Virus record (IMG/VR): IMGVR_UViG_3300032242_001030
Span: 1 to 39,978 of that record
Reading direction: 5' to 3' (one strand)
DNA length: 39,978 nt
Origin: a virus
The position numbers and the translations under genes were made by a program. How positions within the stretch are numbered: the first letter of the stretch is position 1; each line of letters starts with the position of its first letter. Below are positions 4,545 through 39,631 of the stretch, one piece after another. The notes beneath the pieces were generated by a model that was given only the letters and a program-made list of their open reading frames with translations, ran no database searches and was not told the origin of the DNA.

Positions 4545-4546
4545 TC

Positions 4547-15161: not shown

Positions 15162-15173
15162 TTTTACTATTCC

Positions 15174-17340: not shown

Positions 17341-17347
17341 ATTTCTT

Positions 17348-17683: not shown

Positions 17684-17684
17684 G

Positions 17685-18344: not shown

Positions 18345-18379
18345 GACTGAATTTAACTGAGTTTTGATGCGTTATCTTA

Positions 18380-20568: not shown

Positions 20569-20569
20569 T

Positions 20570-22363: not shown

Positions 22364-22656
22364 TTTGCTTTCTCCAGTATGAGTTGTTTAAGTATTCCTA
22401 CATTGTGTTCATCAATGAGTAGTGCTATGCCACCCTGACGCTCTATATCGTCTAAGTGCATTTGTTGTAGTCGAGTAGGCTTGCCACCTTTTGCCTTGCA
22501 CTCGATGCCTATGAACCATCCGTTGTAACAACATAATATATCGGGTACACCCGAGTTTCCGAATCCACCTGTTAGTGGACTCGTATAGTACGCGCCTAGT
22601 TGCGCCAAGACTAATTTAACTTTGTCTTTTACTTTTGACTCGGGTGTTTGCGCCAT
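22360..22656 (-). CDS. VRR-NUC family nuclease
   Basis: The protein has 98 residues from the ATG at MAQTPESK. The longer frame that runs into the upstream gene is rejected. The VRR-NUC pattern is complete: G-V-P-D39-I, a short strand, then G-I-E52-C-K54, with S/T-PLTGGFGNSG before it and a terminal helix after. Stand-alone VRR-NUC proteins of this size occur in many phages and cut branched or flapped DNA. It is likely a replication or recombination endonuclease, possibly a Holliday-junction resolvase. No strong ribosome site is visible. Confidence 0.88.
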   Translation of the reverse strand: MAQTPESKVKDKVKLVLAQLGAYYTSPLTGGFGNSGVPDILCCYNGWFIGIECKAKGGKPTRLQQMHLDDIERQGGIALLIDEHNVGILKQLILEKAK

Positions 22657-22660
22657 GATG

Positions 22661-23587
22661 TTATTCTGCGTGTAAGGGAATGAGGGTGACCAATGCACTA
22701 TTCCTAGATGCCATTGATACATCTATATCGGGATAGAAACGATCTCTAACCATTATGCCTAACGCATTTTCTTCATCATAGTAATTCTTGTTACTCTGAA
22801 AGTATGTACGGATCATTGATGCGACCCCTGCAATAGGACTATCTGAAATAGAGTTATAACGCTCTAATGGTTTGGTGAATGTAATATCGTTGGGCATAGA
22901 TCTATATGTGTCGAATGTCGCTTCACCGATCAACAGTCCATCATTAGCTTGATTGATACTTGAGTATCTGTATGGCATCTTCACTACTATGCAACCCTTT
23001 GAGTATCGTTCCAATGTTTTCTTGCCATTGTCAAGTTCGCCCAATCCTTTAAGATACTTATGATAAGTATTTTGTACATCATCTATATTGAATGGTGTTG
23101 TTGTAGGTACTTTGAGTATGTATTCAATCATGCCAAGTGCCTCGTCACTACTGCAAGATATTTGAGGTTTACGCTTTTCATTCACATTATTGAACGCGTC
23201 TCTAATTGCGCCTTTGTATGAGTCAAATATTTTTGATTCATCGGGACTCTCACTATTTTTCTTTATAGTTTTTATAAGAGATGTTATCTTGTTTGAATCC
23301 CTTGAATTAGAATCAGAGTTTGCGCTTGCCTTCTCTTTAGTGATGATTCCATCACATCGATATACATAGATGGGATCACCATCCTTGTGCTTAATTAGCA
23401 ATTCACCAAGTGGTATTCCACGCTTAGATAGAACATTGATTTTCTTTGATGAATTATCATACGCGATAGCTTTAACATCGAATGTATGACAGAACTCCAT
23501 TGTGAGTACCTTCAGATCATTGTTTGATTCCAATACTTCTGATAAGTATTCCATGTTAGCAAATTGTGATGCTACTTTTTCAATCAT
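22661..23587 (-). CDS. Unknown 308-residue protein of the MoxR/VWA region
   Basis: The N-terminal 90 residues are mixed alpha/beta. About 88-110 is a Ser/Asn/Asp-rich linker, and the C-terminal 150 look globular (KGCIVVKMPYRYSSINQAND..., GVASMIRTYFQSNKNYYDEE). No catalytic motif was seen and no family is recognised. It is the last gene of the segment that also encodes the MoxR ATPase and the metallopeptidase/VWA protein, separated by short gaps, so a link to that machinery is plausible but only by neighbourhood. Confidence 0.7.
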   Translation of the reverse strand: MIEKVASQFANMEYLSEVLESNNDLKVLTMEFCHTFDVKAIAYDNSSKKINVLSKRGIPLGELLIKHKDGDPIYVYRCDGIITKEKASANSDSNSRDSNKITSLIKTIKKNSESPDESKIFDSYKGAIRDAFNNVNEKRKPQISCSSDEALGMIEYILKVPTTTPFNIDDVQNTYHKYLKGLGELDNGKKTLERYSKGCIVVKMPYRYSSINQANDGLLIGEATFDTYRSMPNDITFTKPLERYNSISDSPIAGVASMIRTYFQSNKNYYDEENALGIMVRDRFYPDIDVSMASRNSALVTLIPLHAE

Positions 23588-23607
23588 TACTTTTCTCCTT
23601 AACTAAA

Positions 23608-24519
23608 TTAATAACGCGTTTTAACTTCATTGTCTTGAACTATGGTGTATCCCCATTTACTCGTTGGAAAATACTTACCACCTTCGTGGGGCTCAAGTAT
23701 AAACGGAATATCTGTGCCTTGCAATATGACATCATTTAATTTTGTATGAATTTTCTCAAACAGAGTAACTTTGAAACTACGCCCCAATACCATATTACTA
23801 TGATCCCAATTTATATAATTGATATTCTGTTGGGTTGCAAACATAATCGCAGCATCTACAATTCTTCTCTGATCTAGAAGATCAACAACCAATGAGGGCT
23901 TCCTCCACATCTCATCCTTAAACTCTTTATTGAGATCTATTAGGGTTTCCTTTATACCTTCATCTGACATAGGATCAATCATCACCTTGGCTAAGGATTT
24001 CAAGTCACCATACTGGGCAAGATATTCTTTAGCCAGTTTCTGATTTAATCTCCTCGCGTTGATGACATATGGTTTGGTGCTTTGTCGTGTCGATAGATCA
24101 AGTAACAATCCATTGAATACTGGATGCATAATCATCTCTTCGTTATTCAGCTGATAAGAATATACAGTACCACCTCTTGCCTTTTCGTGGTAAAAGTTAC
24201 CACCGAGCATCCGTCTGAGGATCATGTTCTCACCCATGTGTGTCGTTGGTCTGTCGAACTCAATCGTATTGTCGGCATAGATGGTTGCGAACTTCTCGTA
24301 CCATGTTCTCTCTTTTACTGTGCCTTCAATGACTGCATCAACTTGTTTTCTGTTAGCGTAGTAACAGACTAATGTTCCATCCCCTTGTAGACGGAAATGT
24401 CTTTCTGAATACTCTCTTGCGCCAAGCGGATACGCATTTGTCGTACCCGCATATGGTTTGTTTGTGTTGACCACATCCATTAATGATGCGTAACTTGTTC
24501 TTCTAATATCGTAAAACAT
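23608..24519 (-). CDS. Unknown 303-residue protein downstream of VWA gene
   Basis: Start chosen at MFYDIRRTSY, which has TAAGGAG upstream and begins 11 bp after the VWA stop. A longer frame overlaps the VWA gene and is rejected. The protein is rich in aromatic residues (SERHFRLQGDGTLVCYYANR, YEKFATIYADNTIEF). It could be a beta-rich N-terminal domain with a helical middle (KSLAKVMIDPMSDEGIKETL). No catalytic motif was recognised. Tight spacing suggests it works with the MoxR-VWA pair, for example as its substrate, adaptor or effector; this is inference. Confidence 0.7.
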   Translation of the reverse strand: MFYDIRRTSYASLMDVVNTNKPYAGTTNAYPLGAREYSERHFRLQGDGTLVCYYANRKQVDAVIEGTVKERTWYEKFATIYADNTIEFDRPTTHMGENMILRRMLGGNFYHEKARGGTVYSYQLNNEEMIMHPVFNGLLLDLSTRQSTKPYVINARRLNQKLAKEYLAQYGDLKSLAKVMIDPMSDEGIKETLIDLNKEFKDEMWRKPSLVVDLLDQRRIVDAAIMFATQQNINYINWDHSNMVLGRSFKVTLFEKIHTKLNDVILQGTDIPFILEPHEGGKYFPTSKWGYTIVQDNEVKTRY

Positions 24520-24529
24520 TGCTTTCTCC

Positions 24530-25729
24530 TTAGTTGTTGAATATAACTTTCTTACCACTTGGAACATCCCAATCCTTGTTCTCTGTAACGAACCACAGAG
24601 TAGGTGCGCTGATTTTCCATTCCACTTCGCGCTCGACATAACCATCTGTGAATACAATCACGCATTCCGCGTTGATCTTCTTCTCATTGATATATTCCGA
24701 TACACACCCAACTTTCGTTCCACCCCCACCTAGAGGCTTGAGCATACCTCCGATGTTCTGATAATTGTTAGTAAAGATTTGCTCACCATGAACCATTGTG
24801 TCCCACCACAGAACCCGAACCGAATCGGGCTCAACCAATTCACAGATAGATACCAGTTCTGTTGCGAACTCATTGATCTGTTCCTGTCCAATAGAACCTG
24901 ATGTGTCGATGGCAACCACCACCTCGCCAATGGTCTCGTTCTCAACTGTCGGCAGATAGATGTCGCTAGGCAACAGTCTCCTATTGAACCTTCTCCATGT
25001 AAACTCATCCTTGCCCTTACATGATGCAGTTACAAAGTCTCTTAACGCTTCGCGCCAATTAACCTGTGGTGTAAGAATATCTGTAATGGCTCGTGGCAAG
25101 TCGACCCCTAAACGCCCTGCGAGTAGTGCGCCTTCGCGTAATGCTCTATCTACCTTGTCGTTCATATCTTTCATGTCTTCAGAGCTTGCATCGCCATCGA
25201 TGTCATGGTCATCGAACTGATACTCTCCATCGTTTGATTGTCCACCCTTGCGTGGATTACCTCCGCTACCTCCACCTCCATTCTTCTCCTCTTCCTCAAG
25301 GAGTTTGTATACCTGTCTCATAGACATGTTATGGTACTTGGGGTCATAGCATCCACCTTCAGGGAGCTTGCATAAGGTTTTGTCCTGTAAAGAAACTATT
25401 ATGTCATTGACCACATAGTCGGCGGCTTTATTGGCACGCGCTCGATCTTCCTTGAACATATCCATGCCATGTATCATGTGTCGCAATGCCACATGAAGAT
25501 TCTCGTGCAACACCAAAGCATTGATCTCACTATCATCCTTGCAATGTGTCTCCAAGAACTTTCTACCATACATCTTGTTACCCTTGGTATCGGCGCATGC
25601 AGTCATGCCCTCCTCGTCTACTACTTTCGTAGTTCCCATCATCATCACACCCGAATAGAGTGCGGTCTCGGGATGCTTCATCATCTTGATGTGTGCGCGT
25701 TTGATGCGCTCTTCTTGCGTTAATGCCAT
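24530..25729 (-). CDS. Metallopeptidase-like plus VWA domain protein (MoxR partner)
   Basis: The protein has 399 residues from ATG at MALTQEER, with GGAG nine bases upstream; the longer frame is less likely. Residues 75-79 are HENLH, an HEXXH zinc motif, in an N-terminal domain like the DUF2201 putative metallopeptidase. About 145-190 is a Gly/Asp-rich linker. The C-terminal VWA-like domain has VVVAIDTSGSIG (MIDAS D275, S277, S279) and a later IVFTDGY. This pairing of peptidase-like and VWA domains is regularly found beside MoxR ATPases. The VWA domain would bind a target while the ATPase remodels it. Often annotated as CobT-like chelatase; no cobalamin role is indicated here. Confidence 0.88.
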   Translation of the reverse strand: MALTQEERIKRAHIKMMKHPETALYSGVMMMGTTKVVDEEGMTACADTKGNKMYGRKFLETHCKDDSEINALVLHENLHVALRHMIHGMDMFKEDRARANKAADYVVNDIIVSLQDKTLCKLPEGGCYDPKYHNMSMRQVYKLLEEEEKNGGGGSGGNPRKGGQSNDGEYQFDDHDIDGDASSEDMKDMNDKVDRALREGALLAGRLGVDLPRAITDILTPQVNWREALRDFVTASCKGKDEFTWRRFNRRLLPSDIYLPTVENETIGEVVVAIDTSGSIGQEQINEFATELVSICELVEPDSVRVLWWDTMVHGEQIFTNNYQNIGGMLKPLGGGGTKVGCVSEYINEKKINAECVIVFTDGYVEREVEWKISAPTLWFVTENKDWDVPSGKKVIFNN

Positions 25730-25730
25730 G

Positions 25731-25832
25731 TTACTTTCTCCATACAAATAAATCTAAAATCAAAACTACAAATGCTAGTATGTACACAATAGCAAAGTAG
25801 CACCTTACTGGGTCATATTTCATATACTTCAT
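25731..25832 (-). CDS. 33-residue membrane peptide between MoxR and VWA genes
   Basis: Below common ORF length cut-offs. The MoxR stop TAA is followed by GGTGGAACA-ATG, an excellent ribosome site, and the TAA of this peptide ends one base before the VWA ATG. The protein starts MKYMKYDPVRCYF, followed by a hydrophobic helix (AIVYILAFVVLILDLFV) and ends WRK. Its 3' end supplies the GGAG ribosome site of the VWA gene. One transmembrane helix with positive ends could anchor or regulate the module at the inner membrane. Translation is well supported by the start context; function is unknown. Confidence 0.75.
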   Translation of the reverse strand: MKYMKYDPVRCYFAIVYILAFVVLILDLFVWRK

Positions 25833-25841
25833 TGTTCCACC

Positions 25842-26948
25842 TTATGATAGAAGAATGTGGTTCTCTGTTGCCCACTTCATGATTGCATTGTTATACCTAC
25901 CGAGCTTGGGCTTGGTGTGCATAATCATTGTGAAGAATATCGCTTGCACCTCGGCTTGGGGAATGCGTTCCACGAACTCCATATACTTGTTTAACTCATC
26001 CTGTGTGTCGAGCTTGTCTACCGCCTCGAACATCATCATGATAAGAGCTGATACTTCATCAGGTACTTTGACTTGCTTGGGGTTAGCCAAAATAGTCTTG
26101 AATTCCATCAGCTTACCTTCTAATTGAATAAACGCTGACATTGATCTCGCACCCGCTTCGCCGATAGTACCCGCCAATGCAACCATCAATGCGTGTTCGG
26201 AGATCTGATCCTTGCGGTCAACAAGTACAGATGCTTTCGCTAATGATCTTGGAGACACGAATTGTTTTACAGTTGACGATGGCTTAAAGATAAACTCATT
26301 GTCTGCCTGATTCGGATCAAGATAAGACTTGAATGCCTTGGTGTTCATCGATGCCCATGCCCTGACTGCCCTTGCGAGCTTGTTCTTGGTTGCCCAAATG
26401 TTCCACTCTTCATGGTTCGGCTTACGCATATTGATTACAGTCACACGATTACCCACATGACCTAGCATTGAATCGCCCACACCATCCGATGCATTATTAG
26501 ATGTAGCGAATAGTTTCGATCCACCTTGTAGTGGACGATCACCTGCTGTTCTTTCTAAGATCAACCTAGTGAAGATGATCTGCAAGAGCTTAGGTGCTTT
26601 CATAAACTCATCGAGCATGATGACCTTGGGCTTATTACTATTCATCTTGAACAAGTCTGATACATAGTACTCGAGAGTGCGTGTCTGATGGTTCGGGATA
26701 CTCGCCGCGACATCCATCATATCTTTAACAGGACAGTCTACATAGATGTAGTCGTACTTGTCATCCTCACACACATCGCCTACTTTGCGCCATGCGTCCC
26801 CATGCATAGATGCAATCATAGACAATAGCGAGCTCTTGCCAACACCAGGTTCAGAGACTACGATAGGTGTGATTGAATCACCCATTGCATGAATCAATTG
26901 TGCAGTCTCATCGATAGAGACATTCATTGTGAAATTTACTTGTGACAT
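25842..26948 (-). CDS. MoxR-type AAA+ ATPase
   Basis: The protein has 368 residues. Walker A is VVSEPGVGKSS (K38), Walker B is KVIMLDEFMKA (D113, E114), and FATSNNASDG follows as sensor 1 with an arginine-rich segment (GHVGNRVTVINMRKP) after it. The C-terminal half is helical. This fits the MoxR/CobS-like AAA+ group, which works as a hexameric remodelling ATPase with VWA-domain partners. The VWA partner is the next large gene. The leader before the ATG contains a 16-bp sequence repeated before another gene at 29386. Phage roles of such pairs are largely unknown. Confidence 0.9.
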   Translation of the reverse strand: MSQVNFTMNVSIDETAQLIHAMGDSITPIVVSEPGVGKSSLLSMIASMHGDAWRKVGDVCEDDKYDYIYVDCPVKDMMDVAASIPNHQTRTLEYYVSDLFKMNSNKPKVIMLDEFMKAPKLLQIIFTRLILERTAGDRPLQGGSKLFATSNNASDGVGDSMLGHVGNRVTVINMRKPNHEEWNIWATKNKLARAVRAWASMNTKAFKSYLDPNQADNEFIFKPSSTVKQFVSPRSLAKASVLVDRKDQISEHALMVALAGTIGEAGARSMSAFIQLEGKLMEFKTILANPKQVKVPDEVSALIMMMFEAVDKLDTQDELNKYMEFVERIPQAEVQAIFFTMIMHTKPKLGRYNNAIMKWATENHILLS

Positions 26949-26972
26949 ATTAATACTCCAGTTGGTTAAGGT

Positions 26973-27881
26973 TTAGTTGAATGATTTAAGGGGTGCAAAC
27001 TTACTCAGCATATCGTCCACATTGTCTTTAACAACACTACGAACATATGCACTCTCGCGTAGATCCTCTACGCTTATGTCCTTCAACGCACTCTCTAGTT
27101 GTGCGCGTGCTTCCTCCAGTTGAGGATTGTTTGTTAGATTAAAGTCTCTCAGGGTGTTACATAACTCCTTTGCTTGGCTAATGGTTGTGTCATAGATCTT
27201 CTTACGCTTTACCTTTCCATCCTCCTGTGGATCGCTCTCAGTACAAGCATTACTGATTCGGCTTGCAATCTCAATGAGTCGCTCACTCGCATCGCCCATC
27301 ACTTGATCGATGATCTCTGTGACTTGCTTCTCATAATGCTTCTTTAGATCTTCTGCAATTACATCGCTGATGTTGGATCTAAAGTCGTTTGTTGGTACTT
27401 GAGTCACGAATAACTTAATTCTGAACTTACTACGAACCTGAGATACATCGGGATATTCCGATCTATCAAACATATCTCCCTGTTTAAAAGCGGAGTTGCT
27501 GACGATGTTGGGGTACTCGTTGCAAAAGTTGTCCAATAACTTGTCAAACTCAACTTCATGTTGTCTAAACTCATTTGTGAACTTCTCGATGTTGCACGAT
27601 GGAAGCAATCTCATGTTGCCACTCCAGTCATAGGTGGAACGCTGAAGCCAGTTATAGACTGTCTGACGATAGTTGAGCAATGACTTATGCTCGGGAGAAT
27701 TGGACAATAAATTCTTGGTGAACTTGCCCGCATCGACATCAGCTTTCTTCATGGTTGTTACTTCATTAGAGATCGCTTTGTCTTGCTTGGTAGCAGTCCA
27801 CACATTTGTTTCTACATTAACTATTAATGCAGAGGTTGAGAGGGATATGATCTGGTTCGGTTGTGTTAGTTCAAAATTCAT
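26973..27881 (-). CDS. Unknown helical protein at head of MoxR/VWA group (DUF3150-like)
   Basis: The protein has 302 residues, mostly helical and charged, with LLNYRQTVYNWLQRSTYDWSG in the first third and long K/E-rich helices after residue 170. Its size, helical nature and position just before a MoxR ATPase and VWA protein match the DUF3150 proteins found in similar three-gene sets on mobile elements. I cannot confirm the family from sequence alone. It probably forms part of the same complex. It ends 24 bp before the MoxR start. Confidence 0.65.
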   Translation of the reverse strand: MNFELTQPNQIISLSTSALIVNVETNVWTATKQDKAISNEVTTMKKADVDAGKFTKNLLSNSPEHKSLLNYRQTVYNWLQRSTYDWSGNMRLLPSCNIEKFTNEFRQHEVEFDKLLDNFCNEYPNIVSNSAFKQGDMFDRSEYPDVSQVRSKFRIKLFVTQVPTNDFRSNISDVIAEDLKKHYEKQVTEIIDQVMGDASERLIEIASRISNACTESDPQEDGKVKRKKIYDTTISQAKELCNTLRDFNLTNNPQLEEARAQLESALKDISVEDLRESAYVRSVVKDNVDDMLSKFAPLKSFN

Positions 27882-27905
27882 AGTATGACTCCATTGGTTG
27901 ATAGA

Positions 27906-28133
27906 TTAGTGTTTAGTCTCTTCAGCGTTTTCTAGTTCGATCAAGTCCCATATCTCGCTACACAGTTTCATGTAGTTTTCCTTGGGGTTGCCCGATTCCA
28001 TAGATACAATTACAAACAGTCTTCCTAAGACCATGTGTACAACTTCCATCGGGTTATCGTCTAAGACCTCACCCACTTGCGCGAGCAGTTCGTTTGCCTG
28101 ATCTCGATACTCGTTTATTTTGTCATCGTTCAT
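27906..28133 (-). CDS. Small acidic hypothetical protein
   Basis: The protein has 75 residues, acidic, all helical (DKINEYRDQANELLAQVGEV, MKLCSEIWDLIELENAEE). The start has GGGAGG upstream, inside the end of the zinc-ribbon gene, and overlaps its stop by four bases. No family was recognised. Confidence 0.65.
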   Translation of the reverse strand: MNDDKINEYRDQANELLAQVGEVLDDNPMEVVHMVLGRLFVIVSMESGNPKENYMKLCSEIWDLIELENAEETKH

Positions 28134-28345
28134 TTGTAATATCCTCCCTTGTTGTTGATACCTTTAAGATCTTCTCGGTTTGTGATGAGCATATAGTTGC
28201 TCTTGTGCATAGGCACGATGGTGTGTTTGCGTGTGCGTGCTTCCTCCTCCCCACACCACAGACACAGGTGATAACCCGCGTTTGCTCGTTTCGGTGAGAA
28301 TGTGTCGCCACATCGCACACACATAGGCTTCATGCGTTGAGACAT
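28130..28345 (-). CDS. Small zinc-ribbon protein
   Basis: The protein has 71 residues. CVRCGDTF near residue 9 and LCLWCGEEE near residue 28 give two CXXC pairs about 17 residues apart, the layout of a four-cysteine zinc ribbon. The rest is basic and soluble. A DNA- or RNA-binding or protein-interaction role is likely. An overlapping frame of similar length on the same strand was rejected because it lacks the paired-cysteine pattern. Confidence 0.7.
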   Translation of the reverse strand: MSQRMKPMCVRCGDTFSPKRANAGYHLCLWCGEEEARTRKHTIVPMHKSNYMLITNREDLKGINNKGGYYK

Positions 28346-28347
28346 GA

Positions 28348-28587
28348 TTAATCCAATCTGTGAGTTGATAGATCTAATGTGAGTAATTCGTAAGAGTGGG
28401 ATTGCCCAAGCTCTTGCTCATCGCCTTGGATGCAGAGATGCATCTCATACTCGGCAGTTGGTAAGTCCACATAGGCATGGACTGGTTTGCCGTTGCACAT
28501 GAGTACATGTACTGTTGGAGTTATTACTGGGGGCTCAACGCCATCGGCATCAAGCATCTCCTCCCAAAACCTTTTCATCTTTCCCAT
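28348..28587 (-). CDS. Small hypothetical protein
   Basis: The protein has 79 residues. The middle (VHVLMCNGKPVHAYVDLPTAEYEMHLC) is beta-rich, resembling short phage proteins with unknown roles. AAAGGAAATAGT precedes the ATG, and a copy of the dispersed inverted repeat lies 32 bp upstream, in its leader. No family was recognised. Confidence 0.65.
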   Translation of the reverse strand: MGKMKRFWEEMLDADGVEPPVITPTVHVLMCNGKPVHAYVDLPTAEYEMHLCIQGDEQELGQSHSYELLTLDLSTHRLD

Positions 28588-28618
28588 ACTATTTCCTTTA
28601 CTGAATGTTTAACTGATA

Positions 28619-28636
28619 TTCCACTATGGCGTGGAA
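28619..28636. repeat. Dispersed inverted-repeat element, copy 1
   Basis: TTCCAC-TATGGC-GTGGAA: perfect 6-bp arms and a 6-bp centre, identical in the whole 18 bp to copy 2. It is followed on the plus strand by CG, then diverges from the other copies. It lies in the leader of the 79-residue gene. Confidence 0.85.
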
Positions 28637-28680
28637 CGATTAAGTAACTGTGTTGAAAGATTGCTCTCCCAACAGATTCA

Positions 28681-28691
28681 ATTGTACCATA
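28681..28691 (-). promoter_or_regulatory. Possible extended -10 promoter
   Basis: On the minus strand TATGGTACAAT contains TACAAT with an upstream TGG, matching the extended -10 form. No good -35 hexamer is at the right distance. It would start transcription near 28674, placing inverted-repeat copy 1 within the 5' leader of the 79-residue gene. Weak evidence. Confidence 0.35.
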
Positions 28692-28714
28692 ACTTTACTA
28701 ATAAACATAGGGAT

Positions 28715-28921
28715 TTACCCTAACTTTGTTAAGGTATCAACCCACTCTGATATTTTATTGGCTATTTCTTTTTCTCTTTCACCCGCGTAATCTCTGAACA
28801 GAGTTAGCAGTAGTTGTGATTCTTCTAACCTACCATTTAATACCCATTTGAGCGCAACCCTACATACTGCCGTAAATTCTTCTTCTAACTCTAGATGGGC
28901 TTGATACTGTTCGTAGTTCAT
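28715..28921 (-). CDS. Small helical hypothetical protein
   Basis: The protein has 68 residues, helical and charged (YQAHLELEEEFTAVCRVALK, GEREKEIANKISEWVDTLTK). AAAGGAAACAAC precedes the ATG. Its stop sits inside the small dyad TAGGG-N5-CCCTA (28708-28722), which might serve as a weak terminator. No family was recognised. Confidence 0.6.
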   Translation of the reverse strand: MNYEQYQAHLELEEEFTAVCRVALKWVLNGRLEESQLLLTLFRDYAGEREKEIANKISEWVDTLTKLG

Positions 28922-28985
28922 GTTGTTTCCTTTAAAAAGTTTATTGAATTGTTTGGCAAGTCTGGCAAGGGATTCGTCTCGCCTG

Positions 28986-29381
28986 TTAATTGTTTAGTTG
29001 ATACTCAAGCTCACAGAGGATCGCATCTTGCATCTCGTCATCCTCATCGCTGATGTTGCCATCGATATAGTCCCTGACCTGTGCATGAACATATGAATAC
29101 TCGTCCACCTCATCGTGGAACACATCCTCACCAAACTCATGCTCGACTGTGTTGAGCGCGTAGTAGTCCGCATCGCCATCAAATGATGCAGTAGCAAACG
29201 CATCGCTGATGAAGTTGTCCACATCGCCGAATCTGATTGACTCTGCATTTCTTGCCTGTGATATGTATTTCGTACGATGTTTTCTTAGTACAGATAGTTT
29301 GCATGTAGATCCGACTTGCTTGCCTTGCGCCAAGTCACTCGCAAGGAATGGCAGTTGAGGACAGAGGAAAAAAGCTTTCAT
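28986..29381 (-). CDS. Acidic hypothetical protein
   Basis: The protein has 131 residues. The first 45 are neutral to basic (MKAFFLCPQLPFLASDLAQG, KLSVLRKHRTKY). The rest is extremely acidic, with many Asp/Glu (FISDAFATASFDGDADYY, ISDEDDEMQDAILCELE). Strongly acidic small phage proteins sometimes mimic DNA, but there is no further evidence. ACTGGAGTATCACA precedes the ATG, a leader shared with the MoxR gene. A copy of the inverted repeat lies 47 bp upstream. Confidence 0.65.
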   Translation of the reverse strand: MKAFFLCPQLPFLASDLAQGKQVGSTCKLSVLRKHRTKYISQARNAESIRFGDVDNFISDAFATASFDGDADYYALNTVEHEFGEDVFHDEVDEYSYVHAQVRDYIDGNISDEDDEMQDAILCELEYQLNN

Positions 29382-29385
29382 TGTG

Positions 29386-29401
29386 ATACTCCAGTTGGTT
29401 A
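29386..29401 (-). repeat. Repeated 16-bp translation leader (second copy at 26953-26968)
   Basis: TAACCAACTGGAGTAT is identical ahead of this acidic-protein gene and ahead of the MoxR gene. A related version (AACCAATGGAGTCAT) precedes the 302-residue gene at 27884. It contains the GGAG ribosome site, so the conserved part extends well beyond what ribosome binding needs. Confidence 0.7.
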
Positions 29402-29427
29402 GTTAGTTGATAAAATGATGAGATAGA

Positions 29428-29445
29428 TTCCACTATGGCGTGGAA
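29428..29445. repeat. Dispersed inverted-repeat element, copy 2
   Basis: TTCCAC-TATGGC-GTGGAA, preceded by GA and followed by CGCTGACCCAAGGGCTAG on the plus strand. The flanks match copies 3 and 4 for over 20 bp. A second dyad TAGGCAA-N8-TTGCCTA follows at 29461-29482. Confidence 0.9.
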
Positions 29446-29882
29446 CGCTGACCCAAGGGCTAGGCAAAGTGCTAATTGCCTAACCAAATTGAATTTTAGC
29501 AGAATAGCCACTTCATGGGTATGGTTTTGGGTAAGTTTGTTGGGGGAAGGGTAGAGAGTTTGTATAGTTTGGTGAAAAAAGGTGGAATTTTAGGTGATTT
29601 TTGGAATTGGAGTAGAATTTCAATTTTGTGTTGAAAGTAATACTAGAGTACACATAGTGGTATATATTTAGTATATAAACTAATAATAATATAATATATT
29701 ATTTAAGAAGAAAAGAGAGAGTATTACTGCAATTCCAAAATTCCATAATTCTAGTGGGTTTTGGTTTTGGAAAGGGAAGTAAAAATGATGTGGGGTTTTG
29801 CACTTGCTAAAAGACTCTTGGTCTTTAAAATATTACTTCTTTCCCTGAGTGCTGAAAAAAATTGGAATTTTGGAATTAACAT

Positions 29883-29891
29883 TGTGGATAA
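29883..29891 (-). promoter_or_regulatory. DnaA box (perfect TTATCCACA)
   Basis: TGTGGATAA on the plus strand is the exact complement of the strongest E. coli-type DnaA box. It lies 49 bp from a second perfect box in opposite orientation. Confidence 0.7.
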
Positions 29892-29940
29892 CCTTGTTTT
29901 ATCTTTGTAAATCAATAGGTTACATCAGTTCCAAAATGAG

Positions 29941-29949
29941 TTATCCACA
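29941..29949 (+). promoter_or_regulatory. DnaA box (perfect TTATCCACA)
   Basis: Exact match to TTATCCACA, facing the box at 29883. Two perfect boxes this close in a gene-free AT-rich region are unlikely by chance. Confidence 0.7.
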
Positions 29950-30079
29950 AGCTAAAAATAGAATTTCGTTGGAATTATAGAATTTTATGGAATTTATACT
30001 TTGATTACCCAATGATGCGTAATTCTAAAATTCTAAAACCAATTCCAAAATTCTATTCGCTTTGGAATTATGGAATTGA

Positions 30080-30155
30080 TTCCACTATACCGTGGAACGC
30101 TGGGTCAAGCTCTAGCTCACGCGTTGGCGCGCGGGGACACATAACTGGTTTCAAA
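30080..30155. repeat. Dispersed inverted-repeat element, copy 3 (long form)
   Basis: The core TTCCAC-TATACC-GTGGAA is followed by CGCTGGGTCAAGCTCTAGCT, a GC-rich segment and GCGGGGACACATAACTGGTT. The whole 75-80 bp block aligns with copy 4. It lies between the candidate origin and the terminator of the next minus-strand gene. Confidence 0.85.
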
Positions 30156-30167
30156 AAGTCTGGACGC

Positions 30168-30202
30168 AAAAAAACCCCGCCAGACCAAAGCCTGACGGGG
30201 TT
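30168..30202 (-). terminator. Intrinsic terminator of the 211-residue gene
   Basis: Minus strand: AACCCCG-T-CAG, an 8-base loop, CTG-G-CGGGGTT, then five further T residues (seven in the full T-run), 11 bp after the stop. It is a strong GC stem with a T-run, a textbook rho-independent terminator, isolating the candidate origin from transcription coming from the right. Confidence 0.9.
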
Positions 30203-30212
30203 GAGTTAGTAA

Positions 30213-30848
30213 TTACTTACTATTCTTAGCTAGTGCATCATTAAATGCATCAATTGCCATTCTTAAAGCCAATTCACTAGGTGCTGTTGTGTCACCGCGC
30301 TGTTCCGCTGTCTTACGGCGCGCTTTAACTGTCACCCAGATACCCTTTTCTTTGTTGCTCATAAAGTCAAAGAACTCAGCGGGAGGCACTTTAGACTTAG
30401 AGGTTTTGTCCAAGTCACGAATTGACTTTTTAATGTCAGCGATTCTATTAGAAACATAGGTACTGAAGTCATTCCTGATTTTCCCAATGATTCCCTTTTT
30501 TACTGGGTCATCAATAGCGCCGAATGCTTGTTGTGTGTAAGACATACAATAGGCGAGAGTCGCATTGTGCAAGCCGTTTTTACCATCCTTGGTGGGAATC
30601 CAATCGGCGGTGTACATTACGGCGGGGTTCAATTCTTGCCATCTAAGAGCAAAACCATCCTTTAACTCATTCTTAACTTCATCGGGTATACCCTTAGGGT
30701 CTAAAAATGATGGGCAATTTTCAATTACATATTGGGCAATTGTCGCGCCTCTCTCTTTGTTTAACGCGGTCTGATAACCCGCTGATTTAAAAGAGGTAAT
30801 TTCAATTGAAGGGATAGCGTTAGCTATTGGGGTCTTAGTTACTTTCAT
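30213..30848 (-). CDS. Unknown 211-residue protein with own promoter and terminator
   Basis: Start ATG follows TTGGAGTATTTT; an in-frame TTG 12 bases earlier is part of the ribosome site. The protein is mostly helical with a globular look (GYQTALNKERGATIAQYVIE; IRNDFSTYVSNRIADIKKSI; WVTVKARRKTAEQRGDT). No family was recognised. It forms a single-gene unit: promoter, gene, strong terminator. This arrangement suggests early, separately controlled expression. Confidence 0.7.
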   Translation of the reverse strand: MKVTKTPIANAIPSIEITSFKSAGYQTALNKERGATIAQYVIENCPSFLDPKGIPDEVKNELKDGFALRWQELNPAVMYTADWIPTKDGKNGLHNATLAYCMSYTQQAFGAIDDPVKKGIIGKIRNDFSTYVSNRIADIKKSIRDLDKTSKSKVPPAEFFDFMSNKEKGIWVTVKARRKTAEQRGDTTAPSELALRMAIDAFNDALAKNSK

Positions 30849-30903
30849 AAAATACTCCAAAAAAAGATTAATAAAACACTGATTATTGCTAACCAGTGAT
30901 TCG

Positions 30904-30932
30904 TTTATACTTGATCTATAACTTTAAAACAA
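30904..30932 (-). promoter_or_regulatory. Sigma70-like promoter of the 211-residue gene
   Basis: TTGTTT (30927-30932), a 17-bp spacer, then TATAAA (30904-30909) on the minus strand. Inverted-repeat copy 4 ends two bases upstream of the -35 box, in position to act as an activator or repressor site. Confidence 0.65.
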
Positions 30933-30934
30933 GA

Positions 30935-31012
30935 TTCCACGGGGTAGTGGAACGCTGACTCACGCGCTAGCTCAACGCGCGGGCTTCGCGAGCGGGGACA
31001 AATAACTGGTAT
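30935..31012. repeat. Dispersed inverted-repeat element, copy 4 (long form)
   Basis: The core TTCCAC-GGGGTA-GTGGAA is followed by CGCTGACTCACGCGCTAGCT, a GC-rich palindromic segment (GCTTCGCGAGC) and GCGGGGACAAATAACTGGTA. It matches copy 3 over almost the whole block, although the six central bases differ completely. It lies between a terminator and the promoter of the next gene. Confidence 0.88.
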
Positions 31013-31034
31013 CAAAAGGGCCGAAGCCCTTTTG
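31013..31034 (-). terminator. Intrinsic terminator of the 74-residue gene
   Basis: Minus strand CAAAAGGGC-TTCG-GCCCTTTTG: nine-pair stem with a UUCG tetraloop, one base after the stop codon. The T-tract lies in the stem's 3' arm and there is no further T-run. It could work on both strands. Confidence 0.75.
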
Positions 31035-31035
31035 G

Positions 31036-31260
31036 TTATCGATCAGTCCTACCAATCCAATCAGCGCCGATTACATGTGGATAGTATTCCGTTTTCCACT
31101 TGTTCTCAACAAACATAATGCCAACCCGCCCAGTCGATGCGCGTGTGTGTGGCTCTGTGATGTACTCAACAACAGCTTTGCCAACAGAATGTCTGTCACT
31201 GATGTGTACAATATCACCTGTCTCTACAGGCTTGAGGGTATCCAAATAAACTAATTGCAT
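31036..31260 (-). CDS. Small hypothetical protein
   Basis: The protein has 74 residues, mostly beta-like: LKPVETGDIVHISDRHSVGK, then GRVGIMFVENKWKTEYYPH. The 'GDIV' entry and short strands suggest a small barrel (SH3- or KOW-like), but no family was confirmed. CTGGAGATTGCT precedes the ATG. It lies between two intrinsic terminators and no clear promoter was found, so it may be expressed by read-through. Confidence 0.65.
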   Translation of the reverse strand: MQLVYLDTLKPVETGDIVHISDRHSVGKAVVEYITEPHTRASTGRVGIMFVENKWKTEYYPHVIGADWIGRTDR

Positions 31261-31279
31261 AGCAATCTCCAGTTAAGTT

Positions 31280-31304
31280 AAAAAAAGGGAGCTGTCACCT
31301 CCCT
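31280..31304 (-). terminator. Intrinsic terminator of the 149-residue gene
   Basis: Minus strand AGGGAG-GTGACAG-CTCCCT followed by six to seven T residues, ten bases after the stop. A convincing rho-independent terminator. Confidence 0.85.
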
Positions 31305-31313
31305 GTCGACTTA

Positions 31314-31763
31314 TTAGTCGCAGACTATTTCGTATTTCTCAACAGTCTGTAGCTCCGTACCAACCAACACCTTACGGCAGGTTGGACTGTCATCTCTTAC
31401 ATAAGCGCTGATTGCCCCTGAGTAAGTAGCAGACTTGAACCTGTAATCCCTGTTAACGGCTTGGGCCCAGTCTTGGGTGTTCATGTTATCCATTGTTTCC
31501 GAGAGATAACCTAACACCTTCATTAACCTTTCATCTTTGAAAGAGTCTAGGTTGTACATAGCAACATACACATGGGGCATGTTGTTGTTCTCCATCAGGT
31601 ACATACGATCCTGGGCGTCAAGCATCTTGTCTAATGCTCTCAACACCTTACCGATCATCTTGCGGTTAGCTTTGATGGTGTTTAAACGCTTAGTAGCTTG
31701 TGCTACTGAGTACGATGCACTTTCAATTGCCTGTGCGTAGGCTTGTGTTGCTCTGCTTTGCAT
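31314..31763 (-). CDS. Unknown 149-residue early protein
   Basis: The protein has 149 residues. The N-terminal 50 form a helical, Ala/Gln-rich and then basic segment (AYAQAIESASYSVAQATKRL); the rest is mixed alpha/beta. No family was recognised. It is the first minus-strand gene from the divergent region, with a good promoter, AGGAGG ribosome site and its own terminator. The layout suggests strong early expression, as for host-takeover proteins. Confidence 0.7.
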   Translation of the reverse strand: MQSRATQAYAQAIESASYSVAQATKRLNTIKANRKMIGKVLRALDKMLDAQDRMYLMENNNMPHVYVAMYNLDSFKDERLMKVLGYLSETMDNMNTQDWAQAVNRDYRFKSATYSGAISAYVRDDSPTCRKVLVGTELQTVEKYEIVCD

Positions 31764-31808
31764 AGCATCCTCCTGTTAATCGGTTGCACTATTGCTTCCG
31801 ATGATTAA

Positions 31809-31837
31809 GTTATAGCTGATGGCGCTATGAAAATCAA
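31809..31837 (-). promoter_or_regulatory. Sigma70-like promoter of the 149-residue gene
   Basis: TTGATT (31832-31837), a 17-bp spacer and TATAAC (31809-31814) on the minus strand. A damaged copy of the inverted repeat lies two bases upstream of the -35 box, the same distance as at the 30904 promoter. Confidence 0.7.
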
Positions 31838-31839
31838 AT

Positions 31840-31861
31840 TTCCACGGGGAGCTGACCCACC
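31840..31861. repeat. Dispersed inverted-repeat element, copy 5 (degenerate)
   Basis: TTCCACGGGG is followed directly by AGCTGACCCAC. Compared with copy 4 (TTCCACGGGGTAGTGGAACGCTGACTCAC with the middle bridging), the right arm TAGTGGAAC is missing. It looks like a deletion of one arm. Confidence 0.7.
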
Positions 31862-32050
31862 GCACCCGCACCCCCCAAGATCTATCAAGGGACTCCTGCG
31901 CGTCGCTACACTCTAATCCACACAAACCACCACCAAATTTTCAAATATAATAATTTCGTTGGCGAAGCGGATTAGCCCCGTGGGATTTAGATAGAAGTGT
32001 TACCCTACCCTGCTTTATGGGAGCGCCAACACCCCCCCATGCAAAATACT

Positions 32051-32078
32051 TTGCCCAATCAAAAAATATTTATATAAA
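32051..32078 (+). promoter_or_regulatory. Candidate promoter of the packaging/head operon
   Basis: TTGCCC, a 16-bp AT-rich spacer and TATAAA, about 110 bp before the small terminase start. The -35 box is only fair, so a late-phase activator may be needed. Confidence 0.5.
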
Positions 32079-32188
32079 AAATGCCATAACTCATTAGTAA
32101 AGTTTACAACACCAAACCCCACCCTTTGAGATGTACAGAATTTAATGTATACTCAGGCCATATTCAACGGAGTGCCCACTTTCCTCCT

Positions 32189-32746
32189 ATGGAACATATA
32201 CCAGACATAGACTTAGATGTCCCCCTACCTGCTTCTGCAAAAGAAGCAATGCCTGAACTTTCAGCTCGTGAAGAGCTAGAGATGCGTGCCCGTACAGTAA
32301 AACTAATTGCTGACTTAAACGGAACACCTATTGAAGTTACATCAGAGCATAGAGGCCAAGCCCTTGAGCTTGCAGAACAGATTACTCAAAACAAATCCAA
32401 CCCTGACTTAACTCAGTACCCGAATGAAACAATTGCTTATCTTGCTGGCATGGTCGCTCAGTATGACGGTCTTGTTGTACGCGAACTTGTTGATCTCAAA
32501 AAATATGTTGTAAATAAACTGATTGCCGAAACAGATCATCCTGATGGCAAGGTCAGATTAGGTGCGCTAAAAGCGCTAGGCGAAGTAGATGGAGTAGATG
32601 CATTTAAGAAACGTACTGAAGTTACACACAAGGTTCAGCCTATTGAAGAAGTGGAACAAGAGTTACTAGAGACTCTTAACAAATTAAAGAATAGGATGGC
32701 TATTGATGTAACGGCAAAGGTGGTTGGAAATGCAACTGACGCTTGA
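32189..32746 (+). CDS. terS: Small terminase subunit
   Basis: The protein has 185 residues from the first ATG in frame; an upstream TTG would add 21 residues and neither start has a good ribosome site. The sequence is acidic and helical. The C-terminal part, GKVRLGALKALGEVDGVDAF followed by KKRTEVTHKVQPIEEVEQEL, is typical of small terminases that come just before a large terminase with a PRHGKS Walker A. It recognises the viral DNA and delivers it to the motor. It overlaps the large terminase gene by 17 bp. Confidence 0.8.
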   Translation: MEHIPDIDLDVPLPASAKEAMPELSAREELEMRARTVKLIADLNGTPIEVTSEHRGQALELAEQITQNKSNPDLTQYPNETIAYLAGMVAQYDGLVVRELVDLKKYVVNKLIAETDHPDGKVRLGALKALGEVDGVDAFKKRTEVTHKVQPIEEVEQELLETLNKLKNRMAIDVTAKVVGNATDA

Positions 32747-34235
32747 ACAAATACAAGAGCTGCAACAGCTTGCACCTACACTGCCTGACGAAGAAAAGCG
32801 TAGGATTAATGATTTAATAAAAACGTGGTATGCTGACTCAACAAAAAGATTAGGCAAAGATGAATTTCTCACGTTCATTGACCACGTATACCCAGGCTAT
32901 AAAGTCGGCCCCCACCACAAGCGTTTGGCAAAGATATTTGAGGAAATCGCGGCGGGAAAAAAGAAAAGGGTTATCGTTAATATTGCTCCAAGGCATGGCA
33001 AATCAGAAATGATTTCTTATCTTGCCCCAGCGTGGTTCTTAGGTAAGTACCCTCACAAGAAAGTTATTATGTCTTCACACACTGCTGATCTGGCAGTGAA
33101 TTTTGGCAGGCGTGTGAGGAACTTGGTTGGATCAGATGCATATAAAGACATCTTTCCACAAGTTGAACTGCAGGCTGATAGTAAGTCAGCATCACGCTGG
33201 GGGACAAATTTTAATGGAGAATATTTTGCTATTGGTGTTGGCGGTGCTCTTGCTGGTCGTGGCGCTGACCTATTCATTATTGATGACCCACATTCAGAAC
33301 AAGAAGCTAAGACAGGAAGGCCCGATGTTTTTCTTCCTGCTTGGGAGTGGTTTCAGTCTGGCCCTTTACAGCGTCTTATGCCAGGTGGTGCAATTATTGT
33401 TGTAATGACTCGTTGGAGTAAGCTGGATTTGACTGGTCAGATCATCAGTCAGATGGAAAGAGAAGATGATGTAGACCCTTGGGAGATCGTAGAGTTCCCA
33501 GCCATCTTAAATGACAAGCCTTTATGGGGAGACTTCTGGCAGTTAGAAGAATTGCTGTCTAAAAAGGCGGGTATGGATCCTAGATACTGGCAGGCCCAGT
33601 ACATGCAGAACCCCGTATCGGAAGAAGGTGCTCTAATTAAGCGGGAATGGTGGAAAATCTGGGAGAAAGAAGACCCACCTAACTGTGAATTCACAATTAT
33701 GAGCTTGGATGCGGCTCAAGAAGCTACAAATCGGGCTGACTTTAACGCTCTAACGACTTGGGGCGTGTTTTTTAATGAGGAATCAAACAATTTCAACATA
33801 ATTTTGTTGAATTCAATCAAAAAGCGGTTGGAATTCCCCGAGCTAAAGAAGTTGGTGCTTGAAGAATACAAAGAATGGGAGCCAGATGCGTTTGTTGTAG
33901 AGAAAAAATCCAATGGATCTGCCCTATATCAAGAGTTTAGGCGTATGGGTGTGCCCGTGGGTGAGTTTACACCAGGTAAAGGACAAGATAAGATCTCTAG
34001 GGTGAACGCTGTATCAGATCTTTTTAGGTCAGGTATTGTTTGGGCGCCTGATAGAAGGTGGGCAAAGGAAGTTATTGAGGAATGTAATGACTTTCCCAGC
34101 GGTACAAACGATGACTTGGTAGATTCGACCACACAAGCATTGATGAGATTTAGACAAGGTGGGTTTATTAGGCTTCCGAGCGATGAACCCGATGAAATTC
34201 AATACTTTAGACGCAGAAGTAACGCATATTACTAA
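32730..34235 (+). CDS. terL: Large terminase subunit (packaging ATPase-nuclease)
   Basis: The protein has 501 residues from ATG, with AAGGTGG upstream. The ATPase domain has Walker A IAPRHGKSEM (K91), Walker B LFIIDDPHS (D185, D186) and the coupling segment VMTRWSKLDLTG. The nuclease domain starts at MSLDAAQEA (D327), with DAFVVEKKSNG and NDDLVDSTTQALMRF as later metal-binding motifs. All parts are complete and in order. It cuts the concatemer and pumps DNA into the prohead through the portal, which is encoded next. Confidence 0.97.
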   Translation: MQLTLEQIQELQQLAPTLPDEEKRRINDLIKTWYADSTKRLGKDEFLTFIDHVYPGYKVGPHHKRLAKIFEEIAAGKKKRVIVNIAPRHGKSEMISYLAPAWFLGKYPHKKVIMSSHTADLAVNFGRRVRNLVGSDAYKDIFPQVELQADSKSASRWGTNFNGEYFAIGVGGALAGRGADLFIIDDPHSEQEAKTGRPDVFLPAWEWFQSGPLQRLMPGGAIIVVMTRWSKLDLTGQIISQMEREDDVDPWEIVEFPAILNDKPLWGDFWQLEELLSKKAGMDPRYWQAQYMQNPVSEEGALIKREWWKIWEKEDPPNCEFTIMSLDAAQEATNRADFNALTTWGVFFNEESNNFNIILLNSIKKRLEFPELKKLVLEEYKEWEPDAFVVEKKSNGSALYQEFRRMGVPVGEFTPGKGQDKISRVNAVSDLFRSGIVWAPDRRWAKEVIEECNDFPSGTNDDLVDSTTQALMRFRQGGFIRLPSDEPDEIQYFRRRSNAYY

Positions 34236-34244
34236 GGATATATC

Positions 34245-36788
34245 ATGGCAACAAACATGGACAAGTCACTTTACACCCAATTAATGCCTGATTTGGTGGG
34301 TGAAGAACCAGATTTACAGATAGAGATAGCAACAGATGAGGAGCCAGCCCTAGCAGATGGCTCAATTGAGGTCATTTTAGAGGAAGAAAAGGGTGAAATG
34401 ACCAGTAAAAATCTTGCTGAAGACATGGATGAGAGCGAGTTAATGAGCATAGCGAGTGAGCTAGTTGGGCTTGTAGATGCCGATATTTCCTCTAGAAAAG
34501 ACTGGGTTGAGGCTTATGTCAAGGGTTTAGAGGTCTTAGGTCTGAGATATGAAGAAAGAACCGAGCCTTGGAATGGGGCATGCGGTGTTTATTCAACTGT
34601 ATTGACAGAAGCTGCGATCAGATTCCAGGCGGAGTCTATTATGGAGACATTTCCTCCAGCAGGCCCAGTCAAAACTGAGATCATTGGCGCGATAGATAAA
34701 CTGAAAGAGCAAGCAGCCAAGCGGGTTCAAGACGATATGAACTACGAGCTGACTGAAGTCATGCCTGAGTACAGACCCGAGCATGAGAGGATGCTGTTTA
34801 ATTTGGGACTGGCTGGATCGGCGTTTAAGAAAGTATATTTTGATCCAAGTTTGGGCAGACAAGTATCGATGTTTGTACCCGCAGAAGATGTGATTATTCC
34901 TTATGGATCGAGTGGCGTGAGAACCGCAGAGCGCGTGACTCATGTGATGAGAAAAACAAAGAATGACATCAAGAAGCTACAAGCTGCTGGATTCTATAGA
35001 GAGATTGAGTTAGGCGAGCCCATACAAATCCACACAGATGTGGAGAAAAAGAAAGCAGAAGAGCAAGGCTATTCGCTCACAGACGATGATCGTTATCAAA
35101 TCCTTGAGATTCAAGTGGACTGGATACTTGATAAAGCTGACAGAGAAGAAGACGAAGAAGTTGCTGAGCCTTACATCATTACGATTGAGAGAGGATCTAA
35201 TAAGGTCTTGTCGATTTATGAGAACGATAAGAAAGAAAGCAAGGGTGAGTTTAAGCAGAAGAGAAATCACTTTATAGACTATTGCTACATCCCAGGCTTT
35301 GGTGCTTATGGTATGGGTCTGATCCACATCATCGGTGGATACGCCCGCGCGGGAACGTCACTTATCAGACAGTTGGTTGACTGCGGCACGCTGTCTAATT
35401 TGCCAGGTGGTCTGAAGTCTAGAGGACTCAGAGTAAAAGGGGATGACACACCCATCGCCCCAGGCGAGTTCAGAGACGTTGATGTTCCAAGCGGATCGAT
35501 AAAAGACAACATCATGGCGTTGCCATACAAAGAGCCATCACAGGTTCTGTTGGCGTTGTTAAACCAGATCACGGACGAGGCAAGAAGGCTTGGATCAATA
35601 GCTGATATGAAAGTTAGCGACATGTCTAGCCAGGCCCCAGTCGGTACAACATTGGCTCTCCTTGAGAGGCAGTTGAAGGTAATGGGCGCGGTGCAAGCGC
35701 GGGTACACAACTCAATGAAAGAAGAGTTTAAGTTACTCAAAGAAATCATCAGAGACCACACCCCCAGCCAGTATGACTACGAGCCAGTAGACGGTAAAAA
35801 GTCGGCTAAGCGTGAAGACTACGACATGGTAGAGGTTATACCTGTCAGTGATCCGAACACATCCACGATGGCACAGAGAATTATGCAGTATCAGGCTGTG
35901 ATGCAGCTCTCACAACAGGCTCCTCAGATCTATAATTTACCACAGTTACATCGCCAGATGATTGACGTCTTGGGTATACCGAACGCGGAAAAGCTTGTAC
36001 CGATAGAGGACGATGAGTTGCCTAAAGATCCGATCAGTGAGAACATGGGCTTTCTCAATGGTTCTCCGAACAAGGCGTTTATATATCAGGATCACGATGC
36101 ACACATCGCAGTGCATACAACATTTTTACAAGACCCGATGATTGCTCAACAAATGGGGCAGAACCCGATGGCTCAACAGATGGCGTCAGCCGTTCAAGCG
36201 CATATCGCATCACACTTGGCCTTTTTGTACAGACAGAAGATTCAGGATCAGTTGGGCATGCCCTTACCTGCACCCGACCAGCAGCTTCCCGAAGAGGCAG
36301 AAGTACAGTTGTCTCAGTTGGTGGCACAGGCCAGTACACAGTTGCTACAGCTTAACTTGGCGCAAGCTCAACAGCAAAAAGCCCAACAACAAGCACAAGA
36401 TCCGATCATCCAGATGCAGCAGCAAGAGTTGCAGATTAAAGCGCAGGATGCTCAGACTAAAGCTAAAAAGGTTGATGGTGACTTGGCACTTAAAGCACAA
36501 GAGATTCAGCTCAAGGCTCAAGAAATGCAAAGTAAACAACAGGGCGAGAATCCTGAAGTGATGAAAGCGCGTCATGCGATAGAGCTTGCTAAAGCTCATC
36601 AACAGATGAACCATGCACAAGAGCAACACAACATGAACTTGATGCAGAACGAGCAAGCAGCGCAACAGCAGTTAAAGCATGGCAGACAAAAACATGTGAC
36701 TGACCTTGTGACTCAAGCGGAGAGAGCTAAAGTTCAGATGGAGTTGGCTAAACAACAAGCGGCTAATAAACCTAAAGGTAACGTATGA
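34245..36788 (+). CDS. Portal protein
   Basis: The protein has 847 residues. After an acidic N-terminus comes SRKDWVEAYVKGLEVLGLRY, then EPWNGACGVYSTVLTEAAIR and RFQAESIMETFPPAGPVKTE, as in large P22-like portals of environmental podoviruses. A clip/wing region follows, then a core with GAYGMGLIHIIGGYARAGTS and PVGTTLALLERQLKVMG. The last 200 residues are a very Gln/Ala-rich coiled coil that may form the barrel reaching into the capsid. It forms the ring through which DNA enters. Position after the large terminase supports this. The end overlaps the next ATG. Confidence 0.93.
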   Translation: MATNMDKSLYTQLMPDLVGEEPDLQIEIATDEEPALADGSIEVILEEEKGEMTSKNLAEDMDESELMSIASELVGLVDADISSRKDWVEAYVKGLEVLGLRYEERTEPWNGACGVYSTVLTEAAIRFQAESIMETFPPAGPVKTEIIGAIDKLKEQAAKRVQDDMNYELTEVMPEYRPEHERMLFNLGLAGSAFKKVYFDPSLGRQVSMFVPAEDVIIPYGSSGVRTAERVTHVMRKTKNDIKKLQAAGFYREIELGEPIQIHTDVEKKKAEEQGYSLTDDDRYQILEIQVDWILDKADREEDEEVAEPYIITIERGSNKVLSIYENDKKESKGEFKQKRNHFIDYCYIPGFGAYGMGLIHIIGGYARAGTSLIRQLVDCGTLSNLPGGLKSRGLRVKGDDTPIAPGEFRDVDVPSGSIKDNIMALPYKEPSQVLLALLNQITDEARRLGSIADMKVSDMSSQAPVGTTLALLERQLKVMGAVQARVHNSMKEEFKLLKEIIRDHTPSQYDYEPVDGKKSAKREDYDMVEVIPVSDPNTSTMAQRIMQYQAVMQLSQQAPQIYNLPQLHRQMIDVLGIPNAEKLVPIEDDELPKDPISENMGFLNGSPNKAFIYQDHDAHIAVHTTFLQDPMIAQQMGQNPMAQQMASAVQAHIASHLAFLYRQKIQDQLGMPLPAPDQQLPEEAEVQLSQLVAQASTQLLQLNLAQAQQQKAQQQAQDPIIQMQQQELQIKAQDAQTKAKKVDGDLALKAQEIQLKAQEMQSKQQGENPEVMKARHAIELAKAHQQMNHAQEQHNMNLMQNEQAAQQQLKHGRQKHVTDLVTQAERAKVQMELAKQQAANKPKGNV

Positions 36789-36973
36789 CACAGCTAGAAC
36801 TATTAAAGAAAAACAATGACGAGTATCGCCAGCAGGCGTTAGATAAATTGATAGGAGGCGGAGTTAAAGACTACGCTGAGTATCGAGAGTTGGTGGGGGT
36901 TATTAGGGGTCTTGCCTTCGCCAATTTAACAATCCAAGACCTTGAACAACGACTAGAAAGTGATAACGAATGA
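36785..36973 (+). CDS. Small helical protein between portal and GroES-like genes
   Basis: The protein has 62 residues, a helical hairpin (LELLKKNNDEYRQQALDKLI, YRELVGVIRGLAFANLTIQD) ending in acidic residues. ATGA overlaps on both sides tie it to its neighbours. Its size and place fit a small head-assembly factor, but nothing specific supports it. Confidence 0.7.
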   Translation: MTQLELLKKNNDEYRQQALDKLIGGGVKDYAEYRELVGVIRGLAFANLTIQDLEQRLESDNE

Positions 36974-37374: not shown

Positions 37375-37383
37375 GGAGTAAAC

Positions 37384-38313: not shown

Positions 38314-38314
38314 A

Positions 38315-38770: not shown

Positions 38771-38790
38771 CTTTTTATAGGAGTCCTTAA

Positions 38791-39618: not shown

Positions 39619-39631
39619 AGGAGCTTAAATC

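Follow-up and report, generated by a model that had tools for sequence, protein, structure and literature searches.

A candidate iteron-type replication origin with optional DnaA boxes, and its candidate initiator, in an abundant group of uncultured phages

Introduction

Does a gene-free stretch of 831 bp in an environmental phage genome mark the place where its replication starts, and which protein would recognize it? The question is raised by virus record IMGVR_UViG_3300032242_001030, analysed here over positions 1–39,978 (39,978 bases; hereafter, the window), in which a sequence-only reading had proposed a replication origin with facing DnaA boxes and short iterons. By TerL, the nearest named relatives are HTVC023P/HTVC027P/DSL-LC04-type phages at ~49–53% identity, and a terL scan of IMG/VR returned at least 600 matches. 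Two relatives could be closed into circles via overlapping ends, giving genomes of 63,877 and 62,363 bases (63.9 and 62.4 kb), which puts the window at ~63% of a genome of this kind. By far the best reading of the region, to which we assign a probability of about 0.82 from sequence comparison, is that it is the phage's main iteron-type replication origin with optional host DnaA boxes.

Results

Genomic context

The region lies at a junction, with replication genes running away from it to the left and packaging genes to the right (Table 1). The leftward genes (~11–31.8 kb) include PolA, an SNF2-type helicase, a nuclease and a 939-aa primase-helicase, and the rightward genes, from 32.1 kb on, include TerL and portal. 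The region had been described as ~830 bp without a gene, and it holds no ORF of ≥70 aa and one of 65 aa, at 30012–30209. A DNA search of annotated phages with 29382–30212 found no match, and Rfam recognized no family in the window. The strong right-hand terminator reported earlier is present; it lies on the minus strand and belongs to the leftward gene 30213–30860, so that what it shields the origin-like region against is readthrough coming leftward.

Table 1 Coordinates of features in the window
Feature	Position	Strand	Remark
Window, record IMGVR_UViG_3300032242_001030	1..39978		39,978 bases
AEP primase fused to DUF927 SaPI-Rep/Cch-like helicase with C-terminal winged helix	11141..13960	(-)	939 aa
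Family A DNA polymerase (PolA)	18380..20245	(-)	Tracks iteron class
Origin-like intergenic region	29382..30212	.	831 bp without ORF of ≥70 aa; array at constant place
Palindrome TTCCACTATGGCGTGGAA	29428..29445	.	Left end of region; 47 bp upstream of leftward gene 28986–29381
Iteron array	29584..30077	.	18 RGAATT/AATTCY sites, 11 being GGAATT/AATTCC
AT-rich stretch, candidate DNA unwinding element	29659..29708	.	8% GC
DnaA box TTATCCACA, exact	29883..29891	(-)	Enrichment across relatives
DnaA box TTATCCACA, exact	29941..29949	(+)	Enrichment across relatives
Module beside array	30080..30150	(-)	Palindrome TTCCAC-N6-GTGGAA, GC-rich stretch, then GACACATAACTGGTTTCA
Intrinsic terminator of leftward gene 30213–30860	30173..30202	(-)	13-bp stem, then T run

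Several neighbouring genes have features of their own. The 215-aa product of 30213–30860 (-) evolves fast and, by iterated profiles, is coded directly beside the array in ten relatives; a pattern search of IMG/VR gave no relative for it, and family searches gave no match. At 24530–26948, a MoxR-like ATPase (PHROG ATPase) adjoins a DUF2201 metallopeptidase/VWA-like protein that PHROGs labels as an HNH endonuclease, and every genome compared keeps the pair in its replication module.

A cumulative GC-skew minimum had been named as a check on the proposed origin. In the two complete genomes a minimum does lie near the array, at −0.3 and −0.5 kb from terL, the arrays starting at −3.6 and −3.9 kb. 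This is weak evidence, because genes run away from the junction on both sides and skew is confounded by gene orientation.

The iteron array

The repeats described in the sequence-only reading are real and concentrated. Of the 22 GGAATT/AATTCC hexamers in the window, 11 fall in the array (about ten had been claimed), against 0.99 expected and a maximum of 6 in 2,000 shuffles of the region. The 8-bp-spaced pairs number seven (RGAATTnnRGAATT); all those of the window lie in the region, where 0.0025 are expected. The reverse-complement copies at 29731 and 29863/29864 form a 15-nt perfect inverted pair. Overall, the iterons occur in direct runs of 2–3 with 8-bp spacing and in both orientations. The very AT-rich block is likewise confirmed, as the lowest-GC 50 bp of the window, with the left iterons on one side of it and the first tandem iteron triplet on the other.

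We compared 50 non-redundant loci, the window included, gathered by terL and ATPase scans. Arrays occur at a constant place, ~2.5–4.5 kb upstream of terL, in nearly every relative having enough upstream coverage, and carry roughly 11–37 core words in 500 bp. Each of the two complete circular genomes has one array, and in these and in other long records each array is the sole dense one of its class that was found. In nearly all relatives, the lowest-GC 50 bp of the locus falls in the array region.

The arrays fall into classes by core word. Class A, to which the window belongs, has RTTCCAR and class B has TGTTCTA; the few loci of class C carry TGTTCYA or GGTTCCAA. Tandem direct spacing is predominantly 8 bp in class A and 8–9 bp in class B. 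The word is uniform inside a genome and switches between lineages, as expected for co-evolution with a protein.

Spacing of this kind would also suit a partition site, or centromere, for plasmid-like maintenance, at which a small dimeric protein binds tandem 8-bp boxes; ribbon-helix-helix proteins bind tandem 8-bp sites, MetJ boxes being an example. We regard this as extremely unlikely, since DnaA boxes and an AT-rich minimum are features of origins, not centromeres, and no ParA/ParM-type gene was recognized among the window proteins scanned, which are part of the genes of a window covering ~63% of the genome.

Among cultured phages, HTVC023P, HTVC027P and DSL-LC04 showed no comparable array and no exact DnaA box. 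A k-mer cluster in HTVC027P was considered as an array and rejected, as it looks like a repetitive open reading frame. A term search of PMC9599517 turned up no origin for HTVC023P-type phages. The cultured relative Synechococcus phage MinM2 carries an array of GTCATAC repeats (L209:17140–17560; ~57.14–57.56 kb of the record) in the gap upstream of terL and without an exact DnaA box; this is probably an origin that uses a further iteron word.

DnaA boxes

Two perfect boxes facing each other had been claimed, and TTATCCACA indeed occurs exactly twice in the window, within 67 bp end to end. Chance gives 0.35 copies per shuffled window. Of 500 whole-window shuffles 31 reached at least two copies, and of 5,000 shuffles of the region none did; judged over the whole window, the two boxes alone are less impressive than inside the region. 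The relatives are more informative. Far from being absent in them, the outcome named beforehand as damaging to the proposal, exact boxes number 27 in 45.8 kb of array regions versus 4 in the other 625 kb, a 92-fold enrichment, and dinucleotide shuffling of the array regions yields 0.39 expected boxes and a maximum of 2. Together with the recurrence of arrays at the same spot, this enrichment supports the candidate origin.

Exact boxes are nevertheless not general. They occur in 22 of 50 arrays (class A, 19/38; class B, 2/8; class C, 1/4), at positions that vary between arrays, and 8 of the 27 are preceded on their own strand by an imperfect second box, 11 bp upstream. One-mismatch boxes are slightly enriched in arrays that lack an exact one (0.32 vs 0.22 per kb). 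Because the boxes are not general, the primary role probably belongs to an iteron-binding protein of the phage itself, with DnaA as a probable auxiliary. Where boxes exist, host DnaA is likely to be functionally relevant.

The arrays also contain (TAG)n runs (for example L011:3263 and L028:4168), which are ~63-fold commoner in array regions than elsewhere and resemble DnaA-trios in sequence, not in geometry. They bear on the proposal that the region mimics oriC, with host DnaA as the primary initiator, TAG repeats serving as DnaA-trios and iterons only modulating. Of the 50 arrays, 23 contain such runs where 0.39 would be expected, 22 of the 23 on one strand and beside AT-rich DNA, and some arrays have tandem 11-bp boxes. 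However, the nearest boxes lie ~55 bp or more from the TAG runs, often on the 5′ side, whereas in Bacillus subtilis, by a geometry that we derived from PMC10201434, DnaA boxes directly follow the 3′ end of the trios, read along the TAG strand. Moreover, the window itself has no (TAG)3 run, and in class B most arrays lack boxes and trios alike, which leaves an oriC mimic very unlikely.

Covariation with replication genes

If the iterons are read by a phage protein, their class should follow that protein, and we compared whole proteins in 13 genomes and domains of the candidate initiator in 17 non-redundant genomes. PolA identity is 69–99% within class A versus 58–63% between A and B, and identity of the whole initiator is 51–99% versus 36–40%. 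The 138-aa protein of 15174–15590 also separates by class, and the MoxR-like ATPase barely does; since these proteins and PolA separate too, covariation does not pick the 939-aa protein out from among them. In TerL the classes overlap, with A–B identity up to 90% and A–A identity down to 76%, as they do in portal (A–B up to 87%, A–A down to 52%), and other virion proteins are mosaic and do not match iteron class. Within the initiator, residues 831–930, the C-terminal winged helix, separate the classes completely (46–72% within A; 20–42% for A versus B/C), whereas the AEP domain overlaps (35–69% vs 35–66%). This combination of AEP overlap and C-terminal separation argues against simple whole-genome phylogeny as the explanation, although it is no proof of binding.

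Mosaicism is visible in the window itself, where the virion genes at 32724–36788 are equally close to class-B and class-A phages and the replication genes at 11141–20245 are mainly closest to class A. The gene at 22661–23587 was considered as class-A specific and rejected, being general and fast-evolving.

The same comparison bears on packaging. With terL only ~3 kb downstream of the array, and with small terminases able to bind repeated sites, the repeats might be the small-terminase recognition site of a pac or cos packaging start. Yet iteron class follows the replication genes and not terL, portal or a 206-aa gene immediately preceding terL, which by position only is a small-terminase candidate; no small terminase was identified. 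A packaging start would also leave the DnaA boxes and the AT-rich stretch unexplained, and we consider it very unlikely.

The candidate initiator

PHROGs, Pfam and NCBIfam annotate the 939-aa protein as a primase/helicase with DUF927, the DUF927 match scoring 94.9 bits against a cut-off of 22.6. Its match to NF047345 (SCCmet_Cch1) reaches 24 bits against a cut-off of 700 and is therefore that of a distant relative, not a member, of the Cch1 family. An AF2 model of the whole protein (mean pLDDT 72.5, moderate confidence) matches AEP primases over residues 1–195 (Z 16.5), and SCCmec Cch (Z 29.1) and SaPIBov1 Rep (Z 27.3) over residues 362–935. When modelled alone (mean pLDDT 72.3), the C-terminal part matches Cch, SaPIBov1 Rep and winged-helix DNA-binding proteins. 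The DUF927/AAA+ core and C-terminal winged helix of the SaPI Rep/Cch fold are thus both present. In SaPI Rep, iterons are recognised by the C-terminal domain (PMC7581432). From the predicted fold and the class separation at residues 831–930, we judge it fairly likely that the 939-aa protein reads the iterons.

Modules beside the array

A second kind of element, missed by the sequence-only reading, flanks the array. The palindrome TTCCAC-N6-GTGGAA occurs at 28619, 29428, 30080 and 30935, and a conserved GC-rich block of ~70 bp at ~30080–30150 is repeated at ~30935–31017. Across relatives, the element is a ~100-bp module made up of the palindrome, an alternating GC-rich stretch and a near-invariant GACAnATAACTGGTATCA. 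Searching for its core with up to three mismatches located it in 47 of 50 array loci, mostly as 2–4 copies in a single orientation; one copy usually lies ~40–215 bp right of the array, and in complete genomes modules were found only between array and terL. Consensus folding of the GC-rich module gave no common structure on either strand and thus no support for a structured RNA.

Because modules follow leftward terminators and stand upstream of leftward genes, their placement suggests leftward promoter/operator modules of early genes. Palindrome arms agree at 3.5 of 7 positions within genomes and 3.2 between them, a weakly higher value, and the operator reading is therefore kept as a suggestion. 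Recurrence of these modules upstream of leftward genes, and the position of the array beside them, would also fit a control region without origin function, in which iterons and palindromes are early-gene operators and the DnaA boxes regulate transcription. An operator, though, would need neither such a density of core words, nor the AT-rich minimum, nor class separation with the initiator C-terminus, and regulatory and origin roles can coexist through autoregulation. A purely regulatory region is accordingly a distinctly improbable explanation.

Discussion

An iteron-type origin accommodates what the locus displays: a single array, under selection, whose short asymmetric iterons form tandem pairs and triplets, adjoining the most AT-rich DNA of the locus. 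In the mechanism we propose, the 939-aa AEP-primase/SaPI-Rep-like helicase would bind the iterons through its C-terminal winged helix, assemble as hexamers, melt the AT-rich stretch, load itself and prime, and PolA would then extend the primed DNA. Where boxes exist, host DnaA would bind and either help opening or tune it to the state of the host, as at P1 oriR or in lambda. The most speculative element is that leftward transcription entering the array may come from the module on its right.

More broadly, origin and initiator might be exchanged together as a replication module while the virion module recombines freely, in a widespread uncultured podophage lineage that would use a single fused primase/SaPI-Rep-type initiator, have switched iteron specificity repeatedly, and have gained and lost DnaA boxes as an optional link to the state of initiation in the host. 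We put this wider evolutionary picture at slightly short of even odds.

For a very abundant group of uncultured phages, the locus offers a candidate origin, a candidate cognate initiator and natural specificity variants. The A, B and C variants are a ready set for asking by what means a 7-bp word is read by a SaPI-Rep-like winged helix. The DnaA boxes, being patchy, give a chance to ask if host DnaA serves phages as an optional sensor.

Known replication systems share parts with this one in different combinations. Iteron plasmids and P1 oriR bring together RepA iterons, DnaA boxes and AT-rich DNA, the same parts as here; their units, however, are roughly 17–22 bp long, compared with 7–8 bp in these phages. 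No Pfam match to a Rep_3/RepA-type initiator was obtained among the scanned proteins, which are part of the genes in a window spanning ~63% of the genome. The alpha protein of satellite phage P4 is primase, helicase and origin binder at once and reads octamer repeats; the 939-aa protein is predicted to resemble it in uniting these functions, and the P4 primase family differs.

The lambda origin has four 19-bp O iterons, with DnaA sites near pO (PMC3985674). It is like the present locus in combining a phage initiator (a candidate here) with iterons, nearby DnaA sites and transcription close to the origin. In lambda, P loads host DnaB, whereas the initiator candidate here is itself a helicase, and its array lies outside genes.

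Close parallels are also found in SaPI Rep and SCCmec Cch, DUF927 initiator helicases that load themselves and share with the 939-aa protein a helicase fold with a C-terminal winged helix (Z 27–29), short iterons, and the pairing by class of iteron word and C-terminal domain. They differ in that the protein here is fused to an N-terminal AEP primase and that DnaA boxes are present, and whereas the SaPI origin lies directly downstream of rep, the array of this phage is ~16 kb from the gene at 11141–13960.
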